A stretch of DNA of 64,000 nt, taken from the NCBI GenBank assembly GCA_947629675.1, contig CANREM010000006.1, forward strand, positions 1 through 64,000, written 5' to 3'. The position numbers and the translations under genes were made by a program. The DNA is from an uncultured Clostridia bacterium. Lineage in GTDB: Bacteria; Bacillota; Clostridia; Christensenellales; Borkfalkiaceae. The notes below the pieces were generated by a model, which had not been told where the DNA came from, did no database searches, and saw only the letters and a list, made by a program, of their open reading frames with translations. Positions within the stretch are counted from its first letter, which is position 1, and each line of letters opens with the position of its first letter. Of the stretch, positions 10,982 to 20,181 are shown one piece after another.

Positions 10982-12695
10982 GGCGGCCGTCGGCCGCAAG
11001 AGGACCGCTCGAAAGACGGGGGGCGTCAACTTTCGCATGGTGGGCGCGCTCCTTCGCAAGGGGAGAGAGGAGCGGCGTTCGATGTTCAAAGCGGGGCAAT
11101 TCGATCTCCTCGGTTTTTTGCTGCGCGTCTTGCTCGCAGGGGCGATCGTCGCCCTCTTTGTGGTTTTCTTCGGCCGCTTTGTCGGCGTATATGCCGCCAT
11201 AAAGACCGCCGGGAAGCCGGACCTTGTGTCGCGCTCCAATGAGCTTTTGACCATCCTTTATTCGGCAATTTTCCTCGGCATGGTGGTCGGCGGCGTGGGA
11301 CAGCTCGGCAGGGAACTCTTTACCGCCGACGATATGAAGCTCTATTCGGCGATGCCCATCAACGCGCGCACCCTCTTCGTCGCGCGGCTCCTCTCCATCT
11401 ACCGCGGGCAACTCGTTATCGCGCTCGTTGCCTTCACGACGGTGAATGCGACGTTTGCATGGCGGGTGAACGTCACGGCCACCTTCTGGCTTCTCTCTTT
11501 CGGGAGCTGCTTCCTCATCCCGCTCATCACGATCGGGATCGCGGCCGTCATCGTGCCCCTCTTCCAAGTGGTCAAAAGGTTCCTCAAAGAGCGGTATATC
11601 CTCATGTTCATCGTGCTGACCGCCCTCCTCGGGGTGGCGATCTGGCTGTATTCCATCATTTTGAGCGGCGTAAAGCAGCTCCTCCTCGGCGACAGCCTCA
11701 AATATTTCTTCAACGAGAAGATCATGAGGGGGATCGGAAAGGCGTGTTCCTTCCTCTATCCCGCCCGCTTCCTTGCGGACATCATGACGGGTGTAAGGCC
11801 GCTTCAAAGCTGGCTGGGGCTTATCGGCGTCGCTGTCGCCGGCATCGCGCTCTCCATGATCATCATCAGGAGCATTCTGACGCGCTCTCTGCAGGCCCGC
11901 AACCAAGGCTCTTCCGCGGCCGCCTTCCGCAACAGCGTCATAAAGGGGAAGGGGTCGAAATTCGCCGCCCTCCTCAAGAAGGAATTTCTGCACATCTTCA
12001 GGACGCCTTCTTACATGTTCTCCTATTTCTCGGTGGCACTCATCATGCCCCTCATGGTCTACTTCTGCATGGACGTCGGGGCCTCTCTCGTCGTCAATCT
12101 CGTGGGGCTTGACTGCGAACTCGAACTTGCGATCTTCCTCACCATCCTCTTCGGGGCACTCACGAACGTATTCTGTGCAACAAACATCAGCCGTGACGGC
12201 GAAATGTTTTATGCGGTGAAGGCCATGCCGATCGGCTACAAGACGGTGTTCCTCTCGAAGATCGTTCTCTGCCTCATCGTCACGGCAATTTCGCAGGTCG
12301 CCTCCGCGGTCACTCTGTGCGCTGCAGGCATGGTGGGCATCGCGGACGCCGCATTTATCGGCCTTGTCGGGCTGCTCTTCAGTTTTGCGAATATCGCGGT
12401 CGCGACGCGGTATGACTTCAACCATGCAAAATTCTCGACGGAGGACGACGGCGAGATCAAGGAATCCTCGGGGACGGTCTCCATCGTCATCGTGGTAGGC
12501 TTGCTCTTTTCCTTCCTCGTCGGCGGGCTTGTGTTCGTACTTAAAATACTCGGCCAGCTCCGCTCCTTCGAGATCGGCTATCTCACCTATGTGCTTGCGG
12601 GAGGGATCGCGCTCCTTGCCGTGGCACTTGCGAACTTCTATCTCTTCTTCCGCTTGAGGAAGAAATATTATGAATTTTCGGGGGGCGGCATCTGA
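10962..12695 (+). CDS. ABC transporter permease (multi-TM exporter subunit)
   Basis: Multiple hydrophobic helices; overlaps the ATPase gene and is followed with 1-nt overlap by the surface protein gene. Confidence 0.8.
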   Translation: MKDRKNKAAVGRKRTARKTGGVNFRMVGALLRKGREERRSMFKAGQFDLLGFLLRVLLAGAIVALFVVFFGRFVGVYAAIKTAGKPDLVSRSNELLTILYSAIFLGMVVGGVGQLGRELFTADDMKLYSAMPINARTLFVARLLSIYRGQLVIALVAFTTVNATFAWRVNVTATFWLLSFGSCFLIPLITIGIAAVIVPLFQVVKRFLKERYILMFIVLTALLGVAIWLYSIILSGVKQLLLGDSLKYFFNEKIMRGIGKACSFLYPARFLADIMTGVRPLQSWLGLIGVAVAGIALSMIIIRSILTRSLQARNQGSSAAAFRNSVIKGKGSKFAALLKKEFLHIFRTPSYMFSYFSVALIMPLMVYFCMDVGASLVVNLVGLDCELELAIFLTILFGALTNVFCATNISRDGEMFYAVKAMPIGYKTVFLSKIVLCLIVTAISQVASAVTLCAAGMVGIADAAFIGLVGLLFSFANIAVATRYDFNHAKFSTEDDGEIKESSGTVSIVIVVGLLFSFLVGGLVFVLKILGQLRSFEIGYLTYVLAGGIALLAVALANFYLFFRLRKKYYEFSGGGI

Positions 12696-15600
12696 TGAGA
12701 AAAACATTGCTTGCACTCATATTGGTCATTCCGATGGTGTTCGTCATCGTCATCTTTACCTCGGTGAACATCATTAGTCTCGTCATGCCGCCCCCCGTGA
12801 GCGGCATCGAGCTCCGTTCTGAGGACGTGGGTGAAGACGGTTCCATCTATATCGATATGGCGGAGGACCGCCACGCGACCGTCGTCGCCGAGGTCCAGCC
12901 GAGCAATGCGGCGGAGAAGGGCTTCACGCTCTCCTCAAGCGATACAAACGTCGCCGAAGTCACGGAGGACGGGCTTATCATTCCCACGGGGGAGGGCAAG
13001 GCGAAGATCGTCGCGACGAGCAACGACAAGGGATTTACGGACAGCCTTCCCGTCGTCGTGGTGTCTTCCAAGCCATATGCCTTCGACTTTGACCTCAAGG
13101 ACGCCGAGGGGAATGCCGTCACGCTCAACGAGACGCAGTCGGGATATAGCGGCACGATCCCCACGGGAAGTTACACCTATGACGTGGCCGTCCATCCCGT
13201 GCAATTCAACGCCTACACCATCAGCGACATCAGCGGCGTCTTTTCGCAGCTCGAGCGCAGCACGCGGACGATCTTCTTTCCGTTTTCGGGGAAGGCAGAG
13301 TTTACCATCCTCGTCGATGGCGGGATAGCCGGTGCGATCGAAAAGAAGGTCAGCCTCGATATCTCGAAGCCTTCCTCCTCTTCCGTCATCATCAACGGCC
13401 AAGTGGTGGAGGACGAGAATGCATTCGGCGGGTTGCAGGTGACGGAGGGGACGACGGAGACGACGCTCTATGTGGAATGTATGGGCGGCCGTCCCACCTT
13501 CAGCTCCGAAAAGGCGCGCGCGGAAATCAATGGAAGAGATGGGAAGTACACCCTCGACATCACCTTTGACGAAGATGCGGGCAGCGAGATCGAAGCGACG
13601 CTCATTGCGGGAAGGAAGGAGTACCATTTCCTCATCTCCTTCACGGAATTTGCATTCTCCGTCTTTTCGGACAATACCCTTCTCCCCATGGAGGACGGCT
13701 CGCGGCAGACGACTGTATTGACGGGCACATCCGTCTCCTTCTATGCCGTTGCATCGGGCGGTGCGAAGGGAGTGGAATACAGCTGGGTCTACACGGGTCC
13801 CCAAGAGGACATCACGGTGGACGGGGGGACGCTCACTCTGAATGCGGCAGCGGGGGGAGATTATACTCTCTCCGTCGAAGCGGTCTATCACGAGACGAGA
13901 AAAGAGGCACTCATCCACGTCTCCATCATCAACAACGTGAGCGTCGTCCAGATCAACAACGACGTCAAGTGCGACCTCGCGGAACGCTATACGATCGCAG
14001 GCATGGTATACACATCCGCGCTCAAGACGGCGGAAAACGTCTATCCGCTCCTCGTCTACACCTACAGCACATCGGGCATCGGGCTTGCGGGGGAGGACAT
14101 TGTCTATACCGTCTCGGACGAGAGCGTCGCCAAGGTGGAGATGCGCGGCGGTGCGCCCGTCCTTATCCCCAAGGGAACGGGAGCGATCACGGTGAATGCC
14201 GCATGGAAGGGGAACGCCGCCTTCGGAAGGAATGTGCAGGGCACCCTGAATGTCAACGTCGTCAAGGAGGCGGTGGCGGTGAAGAATGCCCCCGAACTCG
14301 TTGCGGCGACGGACGCTTCTCTTCCCGTCGTTCTCACGGCGGACATCAAGCTCGGAACGAATTCTGCGGGCGAAGTTCTCTCCGTTTCCGAACGGGAAAA
14401 AGTTCTTCAGAGTCACCGCATGAAGTCTACCTATAACATTGAATGGTACAAAAAGTCGCAGGATGCCGATGAGAAGGATGCCCTCGTCACCTATGTCATG
14501 GAGTTCAAAGCGGATGTCTATGGCAACGGAAAATACATCGACGCGGGCAACTACACCCATGCCGTTGACGGCAGAGATCAGCCTCAGTTCTCTATCTACA
14601 GGGATCCGCTGTATTTCGTCAACTATAAGCAAATGGCGAGCGTGGCGGGACAGGACAACTGCGCCTTCCTCGTCCGAACGGACGGCGTAAAACTCTACGG
14701 CGTCAACCTGCTCGGGTGCAGTGACGAATTGCTCGCCGACGAGAAAGGCGCGTATGACCTCACCCAGCTCAACCACACGGGCACTACGCTCGAGGTGAAT
14801 GCTTCCGCCGAGATCGTCAACTGCCGCATCCGCAACGGGCGAAACGTCATCCGTGCTTACGGCGGCAACCGAGACGGAAGTAAGTATTTCATCAATAGCC
14901 TTTCCGAAAATACCGCCGGGGTGGACAGCGAGCGCATCCATGTCACGATCGACGGCTGTATCCTTGCACAGGGGAGGGAGTTTATCCTCAAGATCGGCGC
15001 GAACAAGGCTCTTCATGCGAACCTTACAAACGGCCAACAGCCCGCTCTTACGGATGAGAGAGGCATGCCGTACAACGACGCCGGGGGGAACAACCTCTAC
15101 GGCGGCGGGAAGCTCCACGAGGACGCATGGTTCTATCAGCAATATGTGATGACGGACGTCACCCTCAAAAATTCCGTCCTCGAGACGAGCGGTCTCTTCA
15201 CCGTCGGCATCGAGAGCAACTTTGCGGGCGAATATCTCTATCCGGGCGGGGAGAATTATAACGGCTTTACCACCGACTGGGAGTGGTCGGGCGGCACTTC
15301 GTTTGCGAGCGTCCTGCGCCTTCATGGGGATGTGCGCCTGTATGACTGGAAGGACATCACCCTCATCAATTCCTCCACCCTCATCGAGTCGCCCACCGGC
15401 GTTCTGTCTGGCTGGCTCAATCTGAACATCGCGAGCATGATCGAATACGTTACGAAGCTGGATCCGGATCTCTATGGCTCTCTCATCGAGCCGACCTCGG
15501 ACGGGAAGAAATTCGTACACGGCGGCATCGCCTATTACGGCGGCGGCAGAAATTATGCCTGCCTCGACACGGCGGGACTCAACGAGTCGCTCGGCGATTT

Positions 15601-15817
15601 TACGCACCTGGGCGTCAATATCGGGATACTTGCCGGGGGCGACACGGCCGAGATGCAGCGGCAGGGTGAACTTCTTCCCAAGGCGGCGGGCACGCACGAC
15701 TTCAACTTCTATATGTATGGGAAGGACAGTGCGAACAACTATGTCAAGCAGAGGAGCGACGAACAGCGCGGGCTGAAATACAAGGGCGTCGCAGCCGTTC
15801 CGCTCTTTGAAAAATAA
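12695..15817 (+). CDS. Membrane-anchored extracellular protein with BIg2-like domains and right-handed beta-helix-like region
   Basis: N-terminal TM; TLSSSDTNVAEVTEDGLIIPTGEGKAKIVATSND and YTVSDESVAKVEMRGGAPVLIPKGTGAITVNA are BIg2-type. Confidence 0.7.
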   Translation: MRKTLLALILVIPMVFVIVIFTSVNIISLVMPPPVSGIELRSEDVGEDGSIYIDMAEDRHATVVAEVQPSNAAEKGFTLSSSDTNVAEVTEDGLIIPTGEGKAKIVATSNDKGFTDSLPVVVVSSKPYAFDFDLKDAEGNAVTLNETQSGYSGTIPTGSYTYDVAVHPVQFNAYTISDISGVFSQLERSTRTIFFPFSGKAEFTILVDGGIAGAIEKKVSLDISKPSSSSVIINGQVVEDENAFGGLQVTEGTTETTLYVECMGGRPTFSSEKARAEINGRDGKYTLDITFDEDAGSEIEATLIAGRKEYHFLISFTEFAFSVFSDNTLLPMEDGSRQTTVLTGTSVSFYAVASGGAKGVEYSWVYTGPQEDITVDGGTLTLNAAAGGDYTLSVEAVYHETRKEALIHVSIINNVSVVQINNDVKCDLAERYTIAGMVYTSALKTAENVYPLLVYTYSTSGIGLAGEDIVYTVSDESVAKVEMRGGAPVLIPKGTGAITVNAAWKGNAAFGRNVQGTLNVNVVKEAVAVKNAPELVAATDASLPVVLTADIKLGTNSAGEVLSVSEREKVLQSHRMKSTYNIEWYKKSQDADEKDALVTYVMEFKADVYGNGKYIDAGNYTHAVDGRDQPQFSIYRDPLYFVNYKQMASVAGQDNCAFLVRTDGVKLYGVNLLGCSDELLADEKGAYDLTQLNHTGTTLEVNASAEIVNCRIRNGRNVIRAYGGNRDGSKYFINSLSENTAGVDSERIHVTIDGCILAQGREFILKIGANKALHANLTNGQQPALTDERGMPYNDAGGNNLYGGGKLHEDAWFYQQYVMTDVTLKNSVLETSGLFTVGIESNFAGEYLYPGGENYNGFTTDWEWSGGTSFASVLRLHGDVRLYDWKDITLINSSTLIESPTGVLSGWLNLNIASMIEYVTKLDPDLYGSLIEPTSDGKKFVHGGIAYYGGGRNYACLDTAGLNESLGDFTHLGVNIGILAGGDTAEMQRQGELLPKAAGTHDFNFYMYGKDSANNYVKQRSDEQRGLKYKGVAAVPLFEK

Positions 15818-15829
15818 GATATTTTTCGG

Positions 15830-15863
15830 CGGGTCCGCTAAGTGGGCGGACCCGTATTTTTTT
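15830..15863 (+). terminator. Rho-independent terminator
   Basis: CGGGTCCGC-TAAGTGG-GCGGACCCG + TATTTTTTT. Confidence 0.9.
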
Positions 15864-15895: not shown

Positions 15896-15924
15896 TTGAC
15901 ATTTTTGCGGGCGGCGGATATAAT
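15896..15924 (+). promoter_or_regulatory. Consensus sigma-A promoter for the mgtE leader
   Basis: TTGACA (15896-15901), 17 nt, TATAAT (15919-15924). Confidence 0.9.
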
Positions 15925-15951
15925 AGAAGAAAAAGTACAAGGAGGCAGGCC

Positions 15952-16023
15952 GTGAAAGGGCGAAGTACCAAAGTCGCAGACCGAATGCAAAAGCCGTGGT
16001 TCGCGGTCCGTCATCCCGCGTAA
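15952..16023 (+). CDS. Putative 23-aa leader peptide upstream of mgtE: MKGRSTKVADRMQKPWFAVRHPA
   Basis: SD AAGGAGG with 6-nt spacing to GTG; stop TAA directly precedes a T-tract; embedded in mutually exclusive inverted repeats. Confidence 0.5.
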   Translation: MKGRSTKVADRMQKPWFAVRHPA

Positions 16024-16086
16024 TTTTTTTCACGGCTTCTTTCCTCTGCGCACATCGCTTTTCAAATTATTTTGCGAGGTGAAGAT

Positions 16087-17769
16087 ATGGAAGAAGAGAT
16101 CAGGAAATTATTGGAACAAAAAAACTACGATGACGCTGCCGAGTCGGTGAGGAAGTATTCTCCCGAAGCGGTGGCGCATCTTTTTTCGGAGGTGGAAGAG
16201 GGGGATCTCGTCCCGCTCGCCCGCGCCCTCGAGCCTGAACAGCTCGCCGACGTCCTCGTCCTCTTGGATGCGGCCCTCAAGGAGAAGATCATCGAGGGCC
16301 TGCGCGACGACGAACTGCAGGAAGTCATGGAGGATGTCTCCGTCGACGACACGGTGGACATCATCGAGGAACTTCCCAAAGTCGCCCGCCTCATCGCCGA
16401 AGAGGATGAGATTTTAGCCCTTCTCGAGGAGCGCAACTTTGCTGTCTTAAAGCCCCTTCTTGCGGGCATGAACGAGATCGACCTTGCGGAGGTATTCGAG
16501 AGCGCGAAGGAGGAGGATCTGCCCGTCCTCTTCCGCATTTTGCCCAAGGACCTCGCGGCGCAGATGTTCGTCGAGATCGACACGGACACCCAGCAAAAGC
16601 TCATCAAAAAGCTGAGCGATAAAGAGCTCAAAGAGGTCATGGACGAACTCTTCCTCGACGATACCGTCGACCTCGTCGAGGAGATGCCCTCCAGCGTCGT
16701 AAGGAGGCTTCTCGCCCTCTCCGACAGCGAGACGCGCGCCTACATCAACGAACTTCTCAAGTACCCGAAGGACAGCGCGGGTTCCATCATGACCATCGAG
16801 TTCGTGCGTTTCCTGCCCACCATGTCCGTGGAGAGGGCGTTCGACATCATCCGTGAGACAGCGATCGACAAGGAGACCATCTACACCTGCTACGTCACCG
16901 ACCCCGAGAATAAGCTCCTCGGGCTTGTCACGGCAAAAGATCTGATGCTCGCAAAGAAGGGCGCGCTCATCTCGGACATCATGGAGGAGAACGTCATCTA
17001 TGTGAACACCAAGGACGACAGGGAGGAGGTCGCGCGCAAGATCTCGGACTACGGCTTCCTCGCCATTCCCGTCGTGGATGACGAGAGAAGGCTGGTGGGC
17101 ATCGTCACCGTCGACGACGCCATCGACGTCATCGAAGAGGAGACCACCGAGGACATCGAGGCCATGGCCGGCGTCTTGCACGACAACAGGCCGTACTTGA
17201 AGACGAGTGCCGTCTCCATCTGGAAAAAGCGCGTCCCCTGGCTTCTGATCCTCATGATCAGTGCGACGTTCACGGGACTCATCATCAACTCCTTCGAGGG
17301 AAGGCTGAATGCCATCAGCCCCGTCCTCTTTGCGTGCATCCCCATGCTCATGGACACGGGCGGAAATTCGGGTTCACAGGCTTCGGTCACCATCATTCGC
17401 GCCCTCGCCCTCGGAGAACTGACGACAAAGGACACGGGACGGGTGCTTCTCAAAGAGATCCTCGCGGGGCTTCTGCTTGCGGCCACCCTTGCCGTCGCCT
17501 GCTTTGCAAAGCTCATGCTCATCGACAATCTTCTCTTCGGGACGTTCATGCCGGGGAACAGGGCGTACACCTGGGATAAATGCGCGATCGTCTCGCTGTC
17601 CCTCTTTTGCACCGTCCTCGTTGCGAAGATCGTCGGGTGCCTTCTGCCTCTCCTCGTGAAGAAGTGCAAGCTCGACCCCGCCGCCGTCGCCTCGCCCTTC
17701 ATCACGACGATCGTGGACGCCGTTTCGCTCATGATCTTCTGCGGGCTATCCGTTCTCATCTTAGGTTAA
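16087..17769 (+). CDS. mgtE: Magnesium transporter MgtE
   Basis: MgtE_N repeats, CBS pair (MTIEFVRFLP...VSDYGFLAIPVVD), TM domain with PMLMDTGGNSGSQASVTIIRALALGE. Start set at ATG 16087 after GAGGTGAAG. Confidence 0.95.
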   Translation: MEEEIRKLLEQKNYDDAAESVRKYSPEAVAHLFSEVEEGDLVPLARALEPEQLADVLVLLDAALKEKIIEGLRDDELQEVMEDVSVDDTVDIIEELPKVARLIAEEDEILALLEERNFAVLKPLLAGMNEIDLAEVFESAKEEDLPVLFRILPKDLAAQMFVEIDTDTQQKLIKKLSDKELKEVMDELFLDDTVDLVEEMPSSVVRRLLALSDSETRAYINELLKYPKDSAGSIMTIEFVRFLPTMSVERAFDIIRETAIDKETIYTCYVTDPENKLLGLVTAKDLMLAKKGALISDIMEENVIYVNTKDDREEVARKISDYGFLAIPVVDDERRLVGIVTVDDAIDVIEEETTEDIEAMAGVLHDNRPYLKTSAVSIWKKRVPWLLILMISATFTGLIINSFEGRLNAISPVLFACIPMLMDTGGNSGSQASVTIIRALALGELTTKDTGRVLLKEILAGLLLAATLAVACFAKLMLIDNLLFGTFMPGNRAYTWDKCAIVSLSLFCTVLVAKIVGCLLPLLVKKCKLDPAAVASPFITTIVDAVSLMIFCGLSVLILG

Positions 17770-17873: not shown

Positions 17874-19667
17874 TCAACCGACAAAGCGGGCGGTGAGGGT
17901 GCCGTCAAAGAGGTAGAGCGTGCCGTTTTCCACAAAGGCGCGCGCATTTTTCGCGCTGCAGGAGATCGGGATGCGGGCGATCTCCGAAATGTCCCCGCCG
18001 CTGCAGCCGAGGAGAAGATAGCACTTCGCGCTGTCCGCAGAGCCGATCGCGGCAAAGCCGATGAGAGCTTGTTCCCGATCGATATAATATGCCCTGCAGC
18101 TCTCCGCATTTCCCATGAGTTCCTTCGCCCTGTAGGAGGCGGCAAGGGTAGCAGGCGCGTGATACAGTTCCACTTTGACCCCTACGGATGCCGTCGCCTT
18201 CCCGATGCCGAGGAGAAGGCCGCCCGAGAACTTTGTCAGATATAGCGAGAGGGTGGGGGTATTTTCGTCGCGCGTGCATGTGAGATCGTCGGGACTCAGG
18301 CCGAAGGCGAACACGGGGGAGGAAAGGTCCTCCGAGGTGCCCGCATATCCCTTTTTCCCGTCGAAACGGACGATGCGAACGCCCTCTCCCGCGGGGGCAA
18401 AGGCCTCCTTGCTTGCAAGAAGCTCGAGTGTCCGTGCATCCAAAATATAGAGGGAGGCGTTCATCTCTTTGAGAACAAGATGTGCGCGATCATTGTTTTC
18501 GTACATCTTCGTCGTCGCAAAGATGCGCAAATTTCCCTCCCATTCGTCCATCGAGGCACTGCCCCCGATCATTCCCCCGACGGTCGCCTTCGCGCTGAGG
18601 GCGAGGTTGCCCTCCCCGTCATAGGCGATGCGGACGACATTCGTCCTGTATTCATAGCGTCCCTCTTCTTGGGTACTTGCAAGGTAGTTGTTCGTCGCAT
18701 AGACCGCACTTTTCGAGAAGGAAGCCTCGCCCGCGAAGGAGAGGAGCGCGCGCGTCGCAAGAAGCTTTCCCGTCTTTGAAAGGGTCGTCACCACGGTATA
18801 GACGGGCGTATGCGCCTCGTCGGGAAGGAAAATGGCCGAGGCGGGGATGGGGGCAAGTTTGCCAAAGACACCCGTATGCGGGAGATAATCCTCCGCCCTT
18901 GTAAGGTCGGAGTTTTGCGGCACCGTGAAGCGGGATACCGTCAGAAAAATGTCTCCGATAAGGCGGGAGGCCGAATGCTTTCCCGAGATAAACTGCATCC
19001 CTGTCACAGACATGGTGGCGGGGTTTTTCGTCTCCACCTCGATCACGGCGGTGTAGGGGAGCCATGTTGCGGGGTCACAGACCGTGGCAAACAGGACGGC
19101 GGAGGAGAGATCATCGCAAAGATACATCTCCCGATCGTCCCCCATGAAGAAGTACCCGCCCTCGGGCGCGATCGCGATTTCGCCGATGAGGGAAGCGGAG
19201 GAAAGGGAGTAGGCCTGCAGATGAAAATCGGCGGTGAGATAGAAGGCCGTCCCATTGCCGATCTGAAGGATGTCTCCCTCCTCGGCACCCTCTGCCTGCG
19301 CGCGGCCGATCTCGCGGTACTCGTTCACGGTAGAGGTCCCTTCGCTGCCGGGAAGATTTCCCTCGCTCCCGGGCGAATCCGTCCAATATTCGTCGTCCCA
19401 AGAAGGCTCGCTGCGCATGGAGGAGAGCCTTTCCTGTATTTCGAGGTAGCTCTCCGCCGTCCCCCCGATCTCGGGCATGAGGGAGGACATCGGATCGGCG
19501 CTCATGCCGCCGGGGAGAAAGAGGGCGAGATTTAAGACAAGCACGGCCGCAAGCGAACAGGAGATGCCGGCGGCGAGCTTTTTATTTCGCGATGCGCGCG
19601 CCTTTTTTACGGTTTTCGCCTTTTCGAGAATGTCCTCTGTGCGTTCCCTATAGCTCTTCATGGGCAA
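17874..19667 (-). CDS. Membrane-anchored beta-propeller-domain secreted protein
   Basis: Short cytoplasmic tail, TM helix, then repeated beta-propeller-like segments; gene overlaps the sigma factor gene. Confidence 0.75.
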   Translation of the reverse strand: MPMKSYRERTEDILEKAKTVKKARASRNKKLAAGISCSLAAVLVLNLALFLPGGMSADPMSSLMPEIGGTAESYLEIQERLSSMRSEPSWDDEYWTDSPGSEGNLPGSEGTSTVNEYREIGRAQAEGAEEGDILQIGNGTAFYLTADFHLQAYSLSSASLIGEIAIAPEGGYFFMGDDREMYLCDDLSSAVLFATVCDPATWLPYTAVIEVETKNPATMSVTGMQFISGKHSASRLIGDIFLTVSRFTVPQNSDLTRAEDYLPHTGVFGKLAPIPASAIFLPDEAHTPVYTVVTTLSKTGKLLATRALLSFAGEASFSKSAVYATNNYLASTQEEGRYEYRTNVVRIAYDGEGNLALSAKATVGGMIGGSASMDEWEGNLRIFATTKMYENNDRAHLVLKEMNASLYILDARTLELLASKEAFAPAGEGVRIVRFDGKKGYAGTSEDLSSPVFAFGLSPDDLTCTRDENTPTLSLYLTKFSGGLLLGIGKATASVGVKVELYHAPATLAASYRAKELMGNAESCRAYYIDREQALIGFAAIGSADSAKCYLLLGCSGGDISEIARIPISCSAKNARAFVENGTLYLFDGTLTARFVG

Positions 19668-20181
19668 CTCCTTTCTTCAATAAGATTTCTTTGAGGGCGG
19701 CTCTTGCGCGGGAGAGAAGGTTGTAGACTTGCTTTCTCGTCCGCTTCAGTATGGTTGCCGCCTCCTCGGGGCGGAAGCCCTCGATGTAGACGAGATAGAG
19801 TGCGTCGCGGTACTGCGGGGGAAGCTCCTCCATGCCCGCATAGAGCAGTTCGTTCTCCGTCCTGCGCTCAAAGAGACGTTCGGGGTCAAAGACGCTCTCC
19901 AAAGGGGGTGCCGTGCGCCTGTTTTTCCGGATGCGGTCGATGCAGTTGTTACGGACCGCCCTGTAGAGATATGCCCTCAGATTGGTGTCGTCGGAGAAGG
20001 AGCGTCTCTTGATGATGAGCGCGACAAAAGCATCCTCCGCGGCGTCTTCCGCGGCGGACATGTCCCGCATGAGACAGTAGGCAAACCGCACGAGCGCGTC
20101 ACTGTATTTTGCGACGAGCGTCTCGAGTGCGGCACCGTCGCCCTGCAGATAGCGGCGGTATAGAAGCGTGCCTTCCTCCAA
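19648..20181 (-). CDS. ECF RNA polymerase sigma factor
   Basis: AEDAAEDAFVALI, YLYRAVRNNCIDRIRKNRR, LPPQYRDALYLVYIEGFRPEEAATILKRTRKQVYNLLSRARAALKE. Confidence 0.93.
   Translation of the reverse strand: MEEGTLLYRRYLQGDGAALETLVAKYSDALVRFAYCLMRDMSAAEDAAEDAFVALIIKRRSFSDDTNLRAYLYRAVRNNCIDRIRKNRRTAPPLESVFDPERLFERRTENELLYAGMEELPPQYRDALYLVYIEGFRPEEAATILKRTRKQVYNLLSRARAALKEILLKKGVAHEEL

Follow-up and report, generated by a model that had tools for sequence, protein, structure and literature searches.

A conserved upstream open reading frame within mutually exclusive RNA pairings in the mgtE leader of Clostridia: a candidate ribosome-read translational attenuator

The mgtE locus and its leader

The window analysed here comprises the first 64,000 nucleotides of contig CANREM010000006.1 of an uncultured Clostridia bacterium (family Borkfalkiaceae, assembly GCA_947629675.1). 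It carries mgtE, the sole full MgtE match in its genome, which starts with ATG at 16087 and is preceded by a promoter (TTGACA at 15896-15901, TATAAT at 15919-15924, spacer of 17 nt), a short upstream open reading frame (uORF) with its own Shine-Dalgarno (SD) sequence, and a set of predicted RNA pairings (Table 1). The promoter, the SD, the GTG-initiated uORF, and its stop had all been placed at these positions by the initial annotation of the locus, and the four pairings quoted there are present in the window sequence. The gene lying upstream, coding for a Big_2-domain protein (12695-15817), is followed by a strong intrinsic terminator at 15829-15855 (11 pairs and a T run) located just 5' of the mgtE promoter, so the mgtE leader is probably the start of a separate transcription unit. 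On the minus strand of the window, at 17874-20181, a gene for an ECF-like sigma factor (177 aa) adjoins one coding for a 597-aa beta-propeller protein (PF09826).

Table 1. Features of the mgtE locus in the window, with strands of the predicted pairings S1, P1, P2, H4, and H5
Feature	Position	Strand	Basis
Sigma-70-type promoter, TTGACA-17-TATAAT	15896..15924	+	12/12 consensus
uORF SD, AAGGAGG	15939..15945	+	AAGGAG(G)-like in same-genus leaders
S1 5' strand, GGCCGTGAA, covers uORF start; partner 16000-16008	15948..15956	+	swap test and double changes
uORF, GTG start, 23 codons, MKGRSTKVADRMQKPWFAVRHPA, TAA stop at 16021-16023	15952..16023	+	in 56/58 same-genus mgtE leaders
Conserved codons GTG AAA GGG CGA AGT ACC (M-K-G-R-S-T)	15952..15969	+	codon conservation in genus
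P1 5' strand, CGCAGA, within uORF; partner 16045-16050	15975..15980	+	swap test and double changes
P2 5' strand, AAGCCGTG	15991..15998	+	swap test; pairing from initial annotation
S1 3' strand, TTCGCGGTC; 3' part overlaps H4 5' strand, exclusive	16000..16008	+	swap test and double changes
H4 hairpin, CGCGG/CCGCG, just 5' of uORF stop	16002..16020	+	double changes
P2 3' strand, CACGGCTT	16031..16038	+	swap test
H5 anti-SD strand, CTTC-TTT-CCTC; partner 16076-16084	16036..16046	+	genus swap test
P1 3' strand, TCTGCG, 3' of uORF stop	16045..16050	+	swap test and double changes
mgtE ribosome-binding region, GAGG-T-GAAG	16076..16084	+	H5 partner, genus swap test
mgtE, 560 aa, MgtE_N, two CBS, and MgtE domains	16087..17769	+	Pfam

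Taken alone, the window leader has an unremarkable folding energy relative to shuffled sequences (z = -1.2), which means that a single sequence is insufficient to exclude chance; it was the comparison of leaders that settled the reality of the element.

Conservation of the uORF within the genus

A search for MgtE in 101 genomes of the same genus, whose organisms are mostly rabbit-gut Clostridia MAGs, was positive in 63, and 58 of the mgtE leaders were read. A common uORF is present in 56 of them; it is preceded by AAGGAG(G), starts with ATG or GTG, codes for M-K-G-R-S-[S/T] at its beginning, and ends after 20-27 codons with a stop codon located 39-68 nt from mgtE. Many of these leaders have TTGAC-like and TATAAT-like boxes at the matching place. 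The leader-ORF regulator of mgtE postulated in the initial annotation is conserved in this sense, and the alignment of related mgtE leaders proposed there as a check shows both a conserved uORF and covarying helices. In two loci of the genus (L054 and L055) a sigma-70 promoter lies immediately 5' of mgtE and there is no leader at all, which makes them natural deletions of the element.

The conservation reaches the level of codons: codon 4 is CGA in 55 of the 56 uORFs and codon 5 is AGT in all 56, with codon 3 varying synonymously (GGA, GGG, GGC, GGT). The first stop in frame 0 falls at 22.8 +/- 1.8 codons; the other two frames close almost immediately or scatter. Within the genus the peptides differ in their C-terminal halves, yet the exclusive pairings persist, and this, together with the constraint on the first codons, speaks against a uORF that only constitutively lowers or couples mgtE translation, or yields a functional small protein, with no sensing involved. 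Such an explanation gains something from those relatives whose uORFs overlap the mgtE start in the manner of plain translational coupling; all in all, it is very improbable.

Pairings in the leader RNA

The pairings were evaluated by a swap test, in which the own partner strand is compared with partners taken from leaders of under 65% identity (a set of 43 non-redundant leaders, relatedness partly controlled), and by counting double changes in an alignment of 34 leaders against 300 shuffles. For the helices S1, P1, P2, H4, and H5, picked by eye on the same alignment that was later used for testing, the swap test within the genus gave p = 7.5e-12 for S1, 1.3e-5 for P1, and 1e-10 for P2, while the double-change cells numbered 24 for S1 (7.8 in shuffles), 17 for P1 (7.7 in shuffles), and 13 for H4 (4.8 in shuffles), with 0/300 in each case. 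A compensatory change in P2, AAGCCGTT/AACGGCTT, is found in L004 and L017. Three control pairs were not significant in the swap test and the fourth (start/SD) was worse than swapped; in the 34-leader alignment, helices set in a slid register pair less well. S1 is incompatible with H4 and P2, and H5 with P1 and P2, while S1 and P1 together would form a pseudoknot. Mutually exclusive pairings around the uORF, as proposed in the initial annotation, do exist and covary. Among those quoted there individually, P2 (AAGCCGTG/CACGGCTT) and H4 (CGCGG/CCGCG) are conserved in kind, whereas GACCG/CGGTC does not recur in the aligned leaders.

The latter pairing had been regarded as an antiterminator and H4 as terminator-like. 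In the window H4 is followed by seven T, and the comparison with mgtL–mgtA, where MgtL acts via a Rho-dependent terminator (PMC11282234), would also favour transcription attenuation, intrinsic or Rho-dependent, set by translation of the uORF. However, at least five T follow the uORF stop in only 3 of the 56 genus leaders, the T run is absent from the nearest relative (L002), and the terminator scan of the window called, by its rules, none at H4. An intrinsic terminator was rejected as a conserved device, the terminator/antiterminator scheme was abandoned with it, and transcription attenuation in either form is quite unlikely. The conserved expression platform looks translational instead, as suggested by H5, the helix predicted on the mgtE SD, which is favoured by the genus swap test (p = 0.0036) and is not significant class-wide (p = 0.79).

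Relatives outside the genus

A DNA pattern covering the SD and the first codons was run over 85,488 species genomes and gave 50 matches, nearly all within the genus of the window. Among those outside it, four that were inspected fall in unrelated coding sequence, and the one in Clostridium vitabionis lies directly 5' of mgtE. In this leader 15 of 16 pairs of S1 are possible by reading (GUGUACACAGUGAAAG with UUUUUGCUGCGUACAC). Relatives of C. vitabionis have M[E/D]GRS uORFs and, in addition, a second type, D-x-P-[L/V]-P-G-R-S. In the family of the window, the uORF occurs in one more genus (L111: MKGRSCSADPCRKERITCSFLL) and is missing from most others; in the sister genus g7 the corresponding position before mgtE is occupied by an M-box instead. 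Two broader searches were set aside: in the class, matches of the GGAG..RTGAARGGNCGAAGT pattern outside the family fall in coding regions and are due to chance, and in the phylum CCYGGNCGAAGTA is too short a pattern, so its matches are mostly chance and uninformative.

Two further arrangements were seen among the relatives. In six leaders (L170, L174, L176, L178, L187, and L239) the uORF overlaps the start of mgtE out of frame, which suggests translational coupling. Many genomes of the family's genus g10 have an additional, short match to the N-terminal part of MgtE, right next to the main match and within one long open frame; their MgtE is longer by an extra N-domain.

Class-wide uORFs and their codon choice

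In a sample of the class Clostridia, 134 mgtE leaders were scorable. The template used required an SD and either M[D/E] with an early Pro, GRS among the initial residues, or P-x-P. Of the 134 leaders, 72 have a uORF of this kind, whereas the reverse strand gave 3 of 134 and random windows taken elsewhere gave 16 of 347. The leader counts are approximate owing to some mis-called mgtE starts (e.g. L200), and the excess is partly circular, as the template was drawn after the first 30-60 leaders had been seen. Examples are MDSGPLPG.., MDAYPGR.., and ..DNPVPGRSS... The codon and frame results given below were not selected for by the template, except that some GRS uORFs were favoured by it.

Proline at uORF positions 2-16 is encoded by CCU or CCC in 101 of 117 cases, vs 595 of 1257 in mgtE (p = 4e-17), and arginine by CGA in 28 of 66, vs 199 of 2063 in mgtE (p = 1e-11); both biases persist after reduction at 70% identity. 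Early anti-SD pairing of the CCUUUACC codons with the mgtE SD gives a weak signal, so the CCY bias may partly reflect pairing. Class-wide, too, the uORF start pairs in an S1-like manner, its own partner being better in 53 of 64 leaders (p = 2e-6). GGNCGAAGT occurs on the sense strand of 16 class leaders and on the antisense strand of none.

Class-wide, 21 of 22 GGNCGA occurrences are in frame 0 of the uORF. For some GRS uORFs, which the template brought in, frame 0 was favoured by that selection; this does not apply to L196, L198, L205, L230, and L234, where GR is followed by other residues. This frame test bears on the possibility that the leader is a riboswitch-like structured RNA sensing Mg2+ directly through an S1–P1 pseudoknot with the conserved GUGAAAGGACGAAGUAGC linker, the ORF being incidental or only an expression platform. 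The near-invariant nucleotides between two covarying helices that would make a pseudoknot are what one would expect of such a sensor, and conservation extends to synonymous sites (CGA, AGT). On the other hand, the start and the frame are kept, GGNCGA holds to its frame in diverse uORFs despite differing surrounding RNA, and the same type of uORF is present in leaders of quite different structure. A pure RNA element is weakened by the frame test, and direct sensing of this kind is unlikely.

The window conforms to the class pattern of an SD-preceded uORF in front of mgtE that carries either in-frame GGN-CGA(-AGT) or Pro/acidic codons early on; its own codons are GTG AAA GGG CGA AGT. Judging by sequence comparison, the window uORF is related to short leader genes preceding mgtE in many Clostridia.

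Comparison with known leader systems

The textbook system of Mg2+ control in Clostridia is the M-box. Like the element described here, the M-box (ykoK leader, RF00380) is a Mg2+-linked leader of mgtE, and in genus g7 it occupies the corresponding place. However, a covariance-model score above its gathering threshold was reached neither in the window nor in the genus, with relatives giving a positive control, and the Rfam scan, which was run on the window, the leader surroundings, and the same-genus mgtE loci, matched neither the M-box nor any other family; the initial annotation was right in setting the leader apart from the M-box. In nine of the class leaders scanned (L201 and eight of 20: L207, L208, L210, L215, L217, L222, L302, and L303) an M-box lies directly 5' of an acidic/Pro uORF before the same mgtE, and it is possible that in these leaders two Mg2+ sensors act in tandem.

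In erm-type translational attenuators, the position of the ribosome in a leader ORF governs access to the downstream ribosome-binding site. Their inducer is an antibiotic-stalled ribosome, and their genes and peptides are unrelated to those of the mgtE leaders. The mgtE leader, as proposed here, would resemble them in control by ribosome position and differ in inducer, genes, and peptides. Two further systems were compared by their descriptions. The pe20 M-box of Mycobacterium tuberculosis (PMC12810186) is a Mg2+-related leader in which a uORF is conserved and the platform is translational, as proposed for the mgtE leader, but it relies on an M-box aptamer. The mgtE motif SRC-65-1 (PMC11109978) is a candidate structured RNA before mgtE-annotated genes, with an SD and AUG in a stem; it differs in being a riboswitch candidate reported only from Thioalkalivibrio, with no uORF described.

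Control of Mg2+ uptake genes by a translated leader has been described for mgtL and mgtP of enteric bacteria. Like the predicted window uORF, MgtL of the mgtA gene (E. coli, Salmonella) is a short ORF within a leader upstream of a Mg2+ transporter gene. MgtL has Pro at positions 3, 5, 7, and 9, and published work locates its sensing of Mg2+ in early translation, with a role for alternating Pro codons and EF-P (PMC6460261), for m1G37-dependent CC[C/U] codons (PMC6335274), and for the acidic EPDP motif with ribosome destabilization and drop-off together with Rho (PMC11282234). In the genome record, E. coli mgtL begins with ATG GAA CCT GAT CCC ACG CCT CTC CCT CGA CGG AGA. The class-wide relatives of the window uORF share with it an acidic residue at position 2, P5 and P7, the P-x-P spacing, CCU/CCC codons, and often a CGA close behind; the window uORF shares only CGA and its position. 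The window peptide, MKGRSTKVADR, has no Pro or acidic residue in the first eight codons, unlike the many class relatives with D2, P5, and P7. It thereby lacks the early residues to which MgtL owes its Mg2+ sensitivity, a point against the attenuator reading given below. Moreover, the lineage is clostridial, the downstream gene is mgtE, while MgtL precedes mgtA or mgtCBR, and the clostridial uORFs prefer CGA for Arg rather than the m1G37-dependent CGG. L228 (MDTGGSSAVPGRSSVDND..) resembles a bridge between the window-type and the MgtL-like uORFs. Judged on the features tested, the predicted window peptide falls outside the MgtL family, and similar pressure is enough to explain the likeness of the class uORFs to MgtL, with no need for common descent. 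Within the open-licence literature searched, no description of such mgtE uORFs was found, and in this scope the clostridial mgtE leader uORF is undescribed.

Proposed mechanism

The uORF, its first codons, and the helices S1, P1, P2, and H4 are conserved by comparison, and from these we infer switching gated by the ribosome: with a probability of about 0.62, the mgtE leader is a translation-dependent, ribosome-read translational attenuator. Ribosomes would read the uORF, and their position would pick which of the exclusive pairings forms. With no ribosome present, or with the ribosome already past, S1 would shut the uORF start and downstream strands would pair with the mgtE SD, keeping mgtE expression low. 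If a ribosome were delayed on the first codons (GGN-CGA-AGT in the window, Pro/acidic codons in the relatives), it would block S1, leaving the mgtE SD more open and mgtE expression high. The signal is likely to be low Mg2+, acting through slowed decoding or ribosome drop-off in an MgtL-like manner; the Mg2+ responsiveness supposed in the initial annotation is plausible given the nature of the gene and the existence of MgtL-like relatives. Should this reading be correct, Mg2+ would be read via the ribosome widely in Clostridia, beside or in place of the M-box, with the channel gene mgtE as the target, and the CCU/CCC and CGA choices shared by two distant groups would allow comparative tests of what exactly the ribosome senses in MgtL.

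A narrower version is conceivable though doubtful, in which the sensor is neither the peptide nor an RNA fold but the codon pair CGA-AGT after GGN: decoding of the early CGA would slow at low Mg2+, a codon-specific step gating mgtE across Clostridia, with Pro CCU/CCC as an alternative or added sensor. CGA-AGT sensing, were it true, would mean that the MgtL principle had been assembled independently a second time, using another codon.

The effect of ribosome position was modelled by blocking the footprint and refolding the leader. Class-wide, the predicted accessibility of the mgtE SD is raised with the ribosome at codons 1-7 and not beyond (0.45-0.52 vs 0.39 for the free leader; p from 3e-4 to 0.02), a small effect obtained with nested folds only, leaving out pseudoknots and kinetics, and with many positions tested. 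In the genus, no early rise was seen in an initial scan under different settings; when the SD was called more strictly, less of the mgtE coding sequence was included, and two footprint sizes were used, a modest, again small, rise appeared at codons 1-3 (0.34-0.35 vs 0.26; p 0.001-0.018 with a 13-nt front). Accessibility there goes down at codons 9-13 and up again near the uORF end, so the direction of control is not fixed by the genus scan. The favoured version, on this modelling, is that an early ribosome would open mgtE, which fits more transporter being made at low Mg2+. In the 26 class leaders with an early motif the predicted rise tracks the motif, a correspondence that is absent from the eight late-motif leaders.
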